A DNA stretch of 64,000 nucleotides from assembly GCF_003751805.1 (NCBI RefSeq), contig NZ_RKHQ01000001.1, positions 1,426,001 to 1,490,000 of the forward strand. The letters run 5' to 3'. The notes beneath the pieces were generated by a model. That model had not been told where the DNA came from. It did not search any database and saw nothing but the letters and a program-made list of their open reading frames with translations. Position 1 is the stretch's first letter. The number at the start of each line of letters is the position of its first letter. Position numbers and translations under genes: made by a program. This stretch comes from Salana multivorans (GTDB taxonomy: Bacteria > Actinomycetota > Actinomycetes > Actinomycetales > Beutenbergiaceae). Shown piece after piece: positions 40,642-43,187 of this stretch.

Positions 40642-42564
40642 ATGGACGTCGCCGCCTTCCTCGCCCGGCTCGATGCGATCCTCGGCGCTCAGGAGGGGCC
40701 GGAGCGCGCGGCGAGCTTCCTCGACGACGCGCTGGCGACCGCACGCGCCGAGTCGGACCGCGGGGGCGAGCTGACCGTCCTCAACGAGCTCCTGGGCTTC
40801 CTCCGGGTGACGGGCCGGCACGGCGAGACGGCCGGCGTCGCCGACCGCGCCCTCGAGCTGCTCGACGAGCTCGGCGCGGCGGGGTCCGAGGCGGGCGTGA
40901 CGACGCGGATCAACGCGGCGACGGCGCTGCGGGCGGCCGGTGACCCCGTGCGCGCGCGTGAGCTCTACGGCCTCGCGCTGGCCGACGCCGAGCGGACGCT
41001 GCCGCCGCTGGACCGCCGCCTGGCGGCGCTGCACAACAATCTCGCGCTGCTGTTCTCCGACCTCGGCGACCACGACCGCGCGCGCGAGGAGCTGACCGAG
41101 GCCCTCGCCATCCTGCGCGGCGGCTCGACCGACCGGGACCGGGACACCGAGATCGCCTCGACGCTCGTCAACCTCGCGCTGGCCCGGTTCGCCTCCGCGT
41201 CCGGCGAGGCGGGAGAGGACGCGCTCGCGCGGGCCGAGCTGGCCGAGGCGCTCGAGGTCTTCGACCGGGTCGGCGCCGTCGACCCGCACCTGGCGTCGGC
41301 GCTCGCCGCGCTCGGACAGGCCGAGGCGCGGGCCGGGCGGACGCGGGAGGCGGCGGCCGCGTACGCGCGCGCGCTCGCGATCGTCGAGGTCTGCTTCGGC
41401 CGGGACAGCGACGCCTACCGCGTGACGGCCCAGAACCTCGCCGCCGTCGGGGGCGACGCCGAGGCGCTGCCGTCGCCGGCTTCCACGCCGTCACCGGTGT
41501 CCACGCCGTCGCCGGTCTCCACACCGAGCGGTGCCCCGTCGTCGATGAGCGGGCTCGACCTCTCCCGCGCGTACTGGGAGGCCTACGGCCCCGACCTCCT
41601 CGCGCGCTTCCCTGACCAGGCGCCGCGGATCGCCGTCGGACTCGTCGGGCACGGGTCGGAGTGCTACGGCTTCGACGACGGGCTCTCCCGCGATCACGAC
41701 TTCGGCCCGGAGCTGTGCCTCTGGCTCACGGCCGAGGACCACGACGCGATCGGCGCCGACCTCCAGGCCGCCTACGACGCGCTGCCGCGGGAGTTCCTCG
41801 GCTTCACCCGGCCGAGCGACGACGAGCGCACCCCGCGGTCCCGCGGCGCGAACCGGCGTCGCGGTGTCTTCGAGATCGGCGCGTTCTTCGAGTCGATCAC
41901 GGGCTACCGCGAGGCGCCGCCGGCCGAGCGTCCGCACGAGTGGCTCATGCTGCCCGAGGCCACGCTCGCCGCCGCGACGAACGGCGCCGTCTTCCGCGAC
42001 CAGCTCGGCGTCCTCTCCGCGACGCGGCAGGGGTTCAAGCAGATGCCAGACGACGTCCGGCTCGCCCTCGTCTCCCGTCGTCTCGGGATGATCGCGCAGG
42101 CGGGTCAGTACAACGTCCCGCGGATGATCGAGCGCGGCGACGGCGGGGCCGCCTGGCTCGCGATCGCCGAGACGGCGAGCGCCGCCGCGTCGCTGGTGTT
42201 CCTCGTCAACCACCCGGCGCGGGTCGGGTACCTGCCGTACTACAAGTGGCAGATGGCCGCGCTGCGCCGGCTCTCGGGACGGCTGATCGCCCGGCTGCCC
42301 GGCGTCGTCGACACGCTCGAGGACATCCTGCGACTGGCGTCGGCCGCGTGCTTCCCGACCTCCTCGGCCTTCCCGACGCCGGGCGCGCTCGCCGAGCCCG
42401 CGGCGGCGGGGGAGCTGGTCGCCGGGCTGATCGAGGATCTCGCGGCTCAGGTCGTCGCAGACTTCCGCGCCCGACGCTGGACCACCTCCGACGAGACGTT
42501 CCTCGAGTGGCAGCGACCTCACGTCGAGGCGGCCATCACCACCGAGTGGCTGCGGAGCCTGTGA
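40642..42564 (+). CDS. TPR plus DUF4037 (nucleotidyltransferase-like) protein
   Basis: This 640-residue fusion begins with five or six TPR-like helix pairs (about residues 1-270; LHNNLALLFSDLGDHDRARE). A repeated STPSPV linker (about 278-295) leads to a DUF4037 domain. The DUF4037 part has a nucleotidyltransferase-like core, GLVGHGSECYGFDDGLSRDH followed by DFG, then a helical half with QAGQYNVPRMIERGD and YYKWQMAALRRLS. The biochemical role is not known to me. It overlaps the DUF4125 gene as TGATG, a fixed pairing that suggests one system. Confidence 0.85.
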   Translation: MDVAAFLARLDAILGAQEGPERAASFLDDALATARAESDRGGELTVLNELLGFLRVTGRHGETAGVADRALELLDELGAAGSEAGVTTRINAATALRAAGDPVRARELYGLALADAERTLPPLDRRLAALHNNLALLFSDLGDHDRAREELTEALAILRGGSTDRDRDTEIASTLVNLALARFASASGEAGEDALARAELAEALEVFDRVGAVDPHLASALAALGQAEARAGRTREAAAAYARALAIVEVCFGRDSDAYRVTAQNLAAVGGDAEALPSPASTPSPVSTPSPVSTPSGAPSSMSGLDLSRAYWEAYGPDLLARFPDQAPRIAVGLVGHGSECYGFDDGLSRDHDFGPELCLWLTAEDHDAIGADLQAAYDALPREFLGFTRPSDDERTPRSRGANRRRGVFEIGAFFESITGYREAPPAERPHEWLMLPEATLAAATNGAVFRDQLGVLSATRQGFKQMPDDVRLALVSRRLGMIAQAGQYNVPRMIERGDGGAAWLAIAETASAAASLVFLVNHPARVGYLPYYKWQMAALRRLSGRLIARLPGVVDTLEDILRLASAACFPTSSAFPTPGALAEPAAAGELVAGLIEDLAAQVVADFRARRWTTSDETFLEWQRPHVEAAITTEWLRSL

Positions 42565-43187
42565 TGGTCGGGCGGGAGACGGTCGACCTCGCCGAGCGGG
42601 TCGTCGCGCACGAGTTCGCGCAGTTCCAGCTGACGCGCAACGACGGCGGCCGGGCGGCGTGCCAGGACGACTGGCCGACCTTCCACCAGATGCGGCTGGC
42701 GCAGTTCCTCACCTGGACGCCCGGGATGCTGCGCTCGTACGAGGCGGACCTCGACCACGCGGACGCCGTCGGACGCAACCTCGTGACCGAGAAGTACGCC
42801 CGGATGATGGCCAGCACCGAGCCGGAGCGCTACCGCGTGGAGCTCGCCCCGCACCTGCCGGAGCTGGACCCCGGCCTGCTCCCGACCATCGAGTCGGTCG
42901 TCGCGCGCCAGGTGGCGTGGGCGCGGGAGTTCCGCGCGGCGTATCCCCGGCTGGGGCGCGCGATGCGCCTCCTGACGAGCTCGGAGGACCGGATCGACGA
43001 CACGTCGTTCGAGACCTACCTGCGCGGCGAGCTGCTCACGTACTCGCCGCGGACCCTCGCGCTGTACGCGGACCTCGTGGCCGACCTCGCCGCGCGCGGG
43101 GAGAACCTCACGACCCGGACGCTGCACTGGACCGTCCTGCTGAGCGGCTACGAGGACCTGGACGAGGCCGAGGCGGCCCAGGAGTAG
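42564..43187 (+). CDS. DUF4125-family protein
   Basis: A 207-residue protein matching DUF4125 by overall pattern: FQLTRNDGGRAACQDDWPTF near residue 20, then FLTWTPGMLRSYEADL and NLVTEKYARMMASTEPERY. No catalytic motif is apparent. Translationally coupled to the TPR-DUF4037 gene; joint function unknown. Confidence 0.85.
   Translation: MVGRETVDLAERVVAHEFAQFQLTRNDGGRAACQDDWPTFHQMRLAQFLTWTPGMLRSYEADLDHADAVGRNLVTEKYARMMASTEPERYRVELAPHLPELDPGLLPTIESVVARQVAWAREFRAAYPRLGRAMRLLTSSEDRIDDTSFETYLRGELLTYSPRTLALYADLVADLAARGENLTTRTLHWTVLLSGYEDLDEAEAAQE

Follow-up and report, generated by a model that had tools for sequence, protein, structure and literature searches.

A TPR-DUF4037 nucleotidyltransferase-like gene and its DUF4125 partner in Salana multivorans, with the glycyl radical enzyme context of distant relatives

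Glycyl radical enzymes (GREs) drive fermentation, anaerobic DNA precursor synthesis, and the formation of trimethylamine and p-cresol in the gut. They are destroyed by oxygen, and the ways in which cells switch, protect and repair them are partly understood. GRE accessory proteins include the activases, BssE and GrcA. In a GRE-using Syntrophobacteraceae anaerobe, the neighbouring genes lrcL (DUF4125) and lrcM (DUF4037) open the limonene ring cleavage operon after bssE, a gene described as encoding a chaperone for the activation of GREs; the operon of the GRE itself is located on another contig, and, in the available text of the paper, both domains are called domains of unknown function and the word tetratricopeptide is absent (PMC12583861).

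Two further systems combine a nucleotidyltransferase (NTase) with a helical protein or domain. In the HEPN/MNT system (HepT-MntA), two genes are adjacent, the first of which encodes an NTase with a GSx(n)DxD motif, and MntA adenylylates HepT and turns it off. A similar adenylylation switch is GlnE, which acts on glutamine synthetase. In the aminoglycoside-type nucleotidyltransferases, an NTase core is followed by a helical domain; in the available part of a published survey, DUF4037 stands beside the C-terminal domain of these enzymes as a member of the HEPN superfamily, with occasional TPR fusions (PMC3710099).

Architecture of the gene pair

We analysed a stretch of 64,000 nucleotides from Salana multivorans (hereafter, the window), for which an earlier note had described a TPR-fused, nucleotidyltransferase-like gene overlapping a second gene by TGATG. 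The coordinates and the Pfam domains of the two genes, A and B, agree with that description. The features are as follows:

40642..42564, + strand: gene A (ATG at 40642, TGA at 42562-42564), 640 aa, with a TPR array, an NTase-like core and DUF4037
40642..41460, + strand: TPR part of A, residues 1-273, 13 predicted helices
41464..41535, + strand: linker in A, residues 275-298, pLDDT < 50, of varying length among homologues
41551..41940, + strand: NTase-like core of A, residues 304-433, alpha/beta order in the AlphaFold2 model
41647..41700, + strand: motif GxGSxxxGxDDxxSxDHD, residues 336-353 of A, invariant positions in 45/45
41941..42249, + strand: DUF4037 (PF13228, Pfam), helical, residues 434-536 of A
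42562..42566, + strand: TGATG stop/start overlap of A and B, read from the sequence
42564..43187, + strand: gene B (ATG at 42564, TAG at 43185-43187), 207 aa, DUF4125 (PF13526), all-helical model
42810..42848, + strand: insert in B, residues 83-95, from the alignment of partnered and solo DUF4125 proteins

As in the HEPN/MNT system, the NTase gene is the first of two adjacent genes; in contrast, A carries GSx11DHD instead of GSx10DxD and is fused to a TPR array, its partner is a DUF4125 protein and not a HEPN protein, and inheritance in the window's order is largely vertical. The succession of an NTase-like core and a helical domain is shared with the aminoglycoside-type enzymes, from which A differs by its TPR array, its fixed protein partner and the lack of a sequence match to a solved member. 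Unlike the described GRE accessory proteins, the pair has TPR, DUF4037 and DUF4125 as its sole Pfam families, and its gene order is the reverse of that of LrcL/LrcM, which is B-A.

In A, Pfam identified TPR_12 (E 2.6e-15) and DUF4037 (residues 434-536, E 3e-29; 102.2 bits against a gathering cut-off of 22.1), and no Pfam family covers the NTase-like part. DUF4125, the only Pfam family of B, spans residues 9-204 of 207 (E 7e-72; 241.7 bits against a cut-off of 25). Both genes are single-copy in the genome of the window and are flanked by genes on the opposite strand, a UDG-superfamily DNA glycosylase gene (mug) upstream and a phosphoribosyltransferase gene downstream, neither of which is beside the pair in the other two carriers of the same family.

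The AlphaFold2 model of A (mean pLDDT 89.9) consists of a TPR superhelix, the low-confidence linker, the alpha/beta core and a helical C-terminal part. The top structure matches of the TPR part were kinesin-light-chain and other TPR superhelices, and TPR chains filled the fold-search lists for A; the alpha/beta order of the core in the model would fit a Pol beta-type fold. Two distant DUF4037 proteins (L009 and L010) have a recognised NTP_transf_2 domain before DUF4037, and the profile-profile match of A to these cousins spans the DUF4037 half only. A sequence search returned no PDB relative of the A core.

G336, G338, S339, G343, D345, D346, S349, D351, H352 and D353 are invariant in 45/45 partnered A proteins, all of which present the GS ... 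DxD pattern of Pol beta-type nucleotidyltransferases as GS, 11 residues and DHD. The NTase metal ligands, whose absence from homologues the earlier note would have counted against its reading, are present as D351 and D353 in every case. Glu411 was found in 29/45 A proteins and an acid at either 411 or 414 in 42/45; judging from the alignment, a third metal ligand, the catalytic carboxylate that Pol beta-type enzymes carry on a later strand, is probable but not fixed in position. Four TPR-less DUF4037 relatives retain G336, G338, S339, G343, D345, S349, D351 and H352, and D353 is lost in two of the four. TPR-less DUF4037 genes were also observed on plasmids of Rhizobium, Streptomyces and Klebsiella (L101, L102 and L103); two of these three, those of Streptomyces and Klebsiella, adjoin insertion sequences, and the Streptomyces copy has DHA in place of DHD.

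The B protein was modelled as all-helical with a pLDDT of 93.5. Searches of PDB and a viral structure library with this model gave no fold match, the lowest Foldseek E values being 1.9 and 1.6 and the highest VIA Z score 4.2 (70 residues), and no PDB match was obtained by sequence either; as modelled, B would have no relative at this sensitivity among PDB and viral structures, which is not proof of a new fold. All four of the aligned lineages with a DUF4037 partner (the window, Fusobacterium, and the distant loci G560 and G529 described below) have the insert at residues 83-95, which is reduced in the proteins of family f17 and missing from solo DUF4125 proteins, which are a shorter form (families f20 and f34). 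It has no fixed nucleophilic residue, given that Tyr90 is Phe in 12/51 proteins and that Ser84 and Thr85 differ in Fusobacterium; thus, we read it as a putative docking element and not as a modification site. No His is invariant in the 51 partnered B proteins, at odds with the Rx4-6H(xY) motif of HEPN partners. Thirty-five B residues are the same in partnered proteins (at least 96% of 51) and in four solo proteins, including E17, C33, R44, D62, K77, Y78, R135, D142, E150, Y152, R154, E156 and Y160, which suggests that B has a function of its own. The DUF4125 proteins of G529 and G509 are divergent and lack several residues that are otherwise invariant in B.

Pairing within and beyond the order

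DUF4125 was found in 35 of 297 genomes drawn from the window's order, and strong matches to the A core (at least 228 bits) occurred in the identical 35 genomes. Weak matches to the core (67 bits or less) were found in 34 further genomes, none of which carries DUF4125. In 35/35 carriers, A and B are adjacent on the same strand in one gene order, with 26-295 nt separating the matched stretches; the occurrence of both genes side by side in the same 35/297 genomes is far above chance. The best 80 of 567 relatives retrieved from genome contigs are close kin (Bifidobacterium, Gardnerella, Alloscardovia, Bombiscardovia, Demequina, Sanguibacter and others); in 80/80 of these loci, A precedes B on one strand, the two always being separate reading frames. 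Among the same 80 loci, a start codon overlaps the A stop by 1 or 4 nt in 23, and more than 400 nt lie between the A stop and the B homology in 3. The A frame of Bifidobacterium catulorum (L030, 8380-9330) has just 317 aa and comprises the core only, which could mean a split or disrupted TPR part.

Two trees were built, one from 41 A cores and the other from 41 B proteins. Bifidobacteriaceae and Demequinaceae separate in both, and both trees largely track host taxonomy; many forks are weak, and the three members of the window's family group together in the B tree only. Based on these trees and on the correlation of their path lengths (r 0.75, Fusobacterium excluded), the pair is inherited as a unit, mostly vertically, within the order. 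Mutual information between A and B over 81 pairs gave a top pair that beat 20/20 shuffles and, in a second run, 59/60 shuffles and 30/30 neighbour swaps. A signal centred on the B insert was equalled by 41/60 shuffles and 15/30 swaps and was dropped.

The notion of a fixed pair consequently holds for the window's order, in all carrier genomes and in all of the best 80 of 567 loci, and does not hold universally. In a phylum sample of 198 genomes, DUF4125 was found in 6 and DUF4037 in 5, and the two together in the genome of the window only. A wider draw of 336 genomes contained DUF4125 in 12, 11 of them outside the window's order; four of these 11 have a TPR partner and seven, from two other families, carry a solo DUF4125 without DUF4037, a status checked genome-wide for five and across the locus stretch for two. 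One gene may therefore occur without the other, as also seen in the 34/297 genomes with a distant A core alone, and the occurrence of DUF4125 without A indicates that it has a function of its own. The gene context of the shorter solo form of family f20 is unlike that of the paired form.

Around solo DUF4125 genes of family f20, we observed ATC-hydrolase-like and Transgly_assoc genes (L095, 7298-10313; L096, 8735-10542; L007, 85-3419) and a short-chain dehydrogenase gene (L095, L007 and L098), with the gene families taken from L095 and the others assigned by similarity.

Glycyl radical enzyme genes around the module

Outside the order, four of five TPR-partnered DUF4125 loci, belonging to three families, sit in operons or clusters with a GRE and its activase, as found with four GRE/NrdD and four activase queries, PFL not being among them. 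In G560, the genes for the large subunit of 4-hydroxyphenylacetate decarboxylase, its small subunit and the activase are followed in a single direction by TPR, DUF4037 and DUF4125 genes; 1 nt separates the stop of the activase gene from the start of the TPR gene, the TPR and DUF4037 genes overlap by 4 nt, and DUF4125 begins approximately 20 nt further on. In G529, genes for the choline TMA-lyase CutC, an activase, an acetaldehyde dehydrogenase and a BMC shell protein lie on the same strand as TPR, DUF4037 and DUF4125, with further shell-like genes intervening between the CutC-side genes and the module. In G509, a 4-hydroxyphenylacetate decarboxylase gene, its activase gene (opposite strand) and an MFS-like gene adjoin a DUF4125-TPR-DUF4125 array, and similarity shows a matching layout in G570, a member of that genus. 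For these GC-rich loci, the gene calls were greedy; family-named genes were checked by family searches, whereas the names of most shell genes and of the MFS-like genes come from visual inspection.

Scans of 13-14 kb around the modules of G509 and G570 did not reveal DUF4037, and the NTase may therefore be dispensable there; for these two loci, as for G490, G501, G529 and G560, DUF4037 status refers to locus stretches and not to whole genomes. In L113 (5658-7754) and L114, two divergent DUF4125 genes flank a TPR gene right before ATP-synthase-like genes, DUF4037 being absent from the stretch. G529 and G560 encode the TPR part in a gene of its own, whereas in the window it is fused to the NTase core, which, by the usual fusion argument, indicates that TPR and DUF4037 work together.

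The fifth TPR-partnered locus, that of Fusobacterium, contains no GRE or activase gene in 16.6 kb. In Fusobacterium vincentii (L014, 7073-7984), an Abi_2 gene separates A from B, and the record, labelled as a plasmid, is chromosome-sized (2.1 Mb). A GRE cluster was found at 0/7 solo DUF4125 loci (stretches of 3 to 18 kb); the difference between 4/5 partnered and 0/7 solo loci has a one-sided P of 0.01 under an assumption of independence that the loci violate. Regarding a third constant partner, for which the earlier note suggested a survey of gene neighbourhoods, clustering of the neighbours in 36 loci (34 of the order, the window and Fusobacterium) revealed none that was general among the 40 largest clusters, A, B and antisense shadows set aside; families common to more than one genus were confined to Bifidobacteriaceae, barring an ABC-transporter-like family and a short frame antisense to B. 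The distant loci do offer further elements, namely, a separate TPR gene in two of them and a GRE with its activase in four.

Within the order, such physical linkage is loose or missing. NrdD or NrdG lies within 10 kb of the pair in 3/80 loci (best 80 of 567; a raw count), and in none of the 35 carriers does a PFL gene come within 10 kb of B. PFL is encoded by 35/35 carriers versus 99/262 non-carriers, and NrdD was matched in 35/35 versus 94/262, the match in one carrier (G416) being a contig-end fragment. Counted by genus, the 7/7 carrier genera are among the 46/95 with PFL (P 0.005) and the 40/95 with NrdD (P 0.002), and the PFL co-occurrence within family f1 has a P of 0.04, all of these values being inflated by shared ancestry. 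Because 99 PFL-positive genomes lack the pair, PFL does not require it; the pair accompanies radical-enzyme metabolism and is not needed for it.

A possible accessory role and the competing readings

The GRE context of some distant relatives suggests that the pair helps to run or protect GREs. As the reading that we prefer, we tentatively consider it a reasonable possibility that A and B represent, in two genes, a module of three parts (TPR, DUF4037 NTase-like protein and DUF4125) serving these enzymes. Candidate clients in the window's organism would be PFL and/or the anaerobic ribonucleotide reductase NrdD, both of which are encoded in its genome. The TPR superhelix of A could dock the client, either a GRE or its activase, or B; DUF4125 would act on the client; and the NTase domain, through its GS..DHD site, might transfer a nucleotide onto the client or the partner and, in this way, switch or protect the radical enzyme when oxygen or substrate changes. 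A more specific proposal, that the module is a new post-translational control and maintenance system in which DUF4125 acts on the radical enzyme or activase and the TPR-guided nucleotidyltransferase switches this action, is doubtful.

To our knowledge, no nucleotidyl-transfer control of GREs has been described. In the open-access literature (PubMed Central), no paper was found that joins glycyl radical or microcompartment terms with tetratricopeptide or TPR and nucleotidyltransferase, and the papers retrieved do not, in their available text, call the module a GRE accessory. Glycyl radical and DUF4125 occur together solely in the limonene paper, the accessible text of which assigns no function to DUF4125 or DUF4037 (PMC12583861). 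As genes close to such enzymes, the available part of a paper on indoleacetate decarboxylase names those for activating enzymes and a small subunit along with an MFS gene; the module is not described in it (PMC6181972). The GRE gene context of the TPR/DUF4037/DUF4125 module is new here. With the module in some GRE operons and a fixed pair in Bifidobacteriaceae and Demequinaceae, two families of unknown function gain a role that can be tested, and a handle is obtained on how cells switch, protect or repair GREs. A CoA-ester role, which the limonene operon alone would have suggested, was rejected, as the GRE link fits that operon too and the other loci better.

It is unlikely that A is a dedicated modifier of B, with the NTase adenylylating DUF4125 and turning it off in the way of MntA and HepT. 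The strict pairing with the NTase gene first, the extra insert of partnered B proteins and the GS..DxD motif, of the kind used by MntA according to the accessible text (PMC7641770), would fit such a switch; however, the insert offers no fixed nucleophile, the invariant tyrosines of B are also found in solo proteins that have no A, and B stands without DUF4037 in the G509 and G570 stretches scanned. This last observation, together with the changing position of the third acid of A, would instead fit a factor that assembles or repairs fermentation enzymes and whose NTase fold serves as a non-catalytic scaffold, a reading that the invariance of D345, D346, D351 and D353 in 45/45 proteins makes rather improbable.

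We regard it as quite improbable that A and B together make up a single nucleotidylating enzyme for a small molecule, of antibiotic type or a metabolite, with B as the substrate-binding subunit. The grouping of DUF4037 with the aminoglycoside enzymes and the plasmid-borne, TPR-less copies, two of three beside insertion sequences, speak for it, whereas the single copies in the window's genome, the largely vertical inheritance in the order, the lack of a PDB relative of the A core by sequence and the TPR array, which is usually a protein-docking device, speak against it. The antibiotic modification that had been entertained earlier is not favoured either, in view of the trees and of the searches with B, for which the phage collection gave no match and the plasmid collection a single one, to a record of chromosome size. 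A toxin-antitoxin or defence pair is very improbable: the overlapping two-gene unit with an NTase is HEPN/MNT-like, but PADLOC and PHROGs gave no matches, B relatives are absent from the phage collection and none was confirmed in IMG/VR, the trees largely follow taxonomy, B occurs alone, and it does not have the invariant His required by the HEPN RNase motif.

One expression record was noted besides: in the available text of a study of three-species biofilms, the genes reported as down-regulated include a Gardnerella DUF4125 gene, with a value of -17.00 (PMC11410844).
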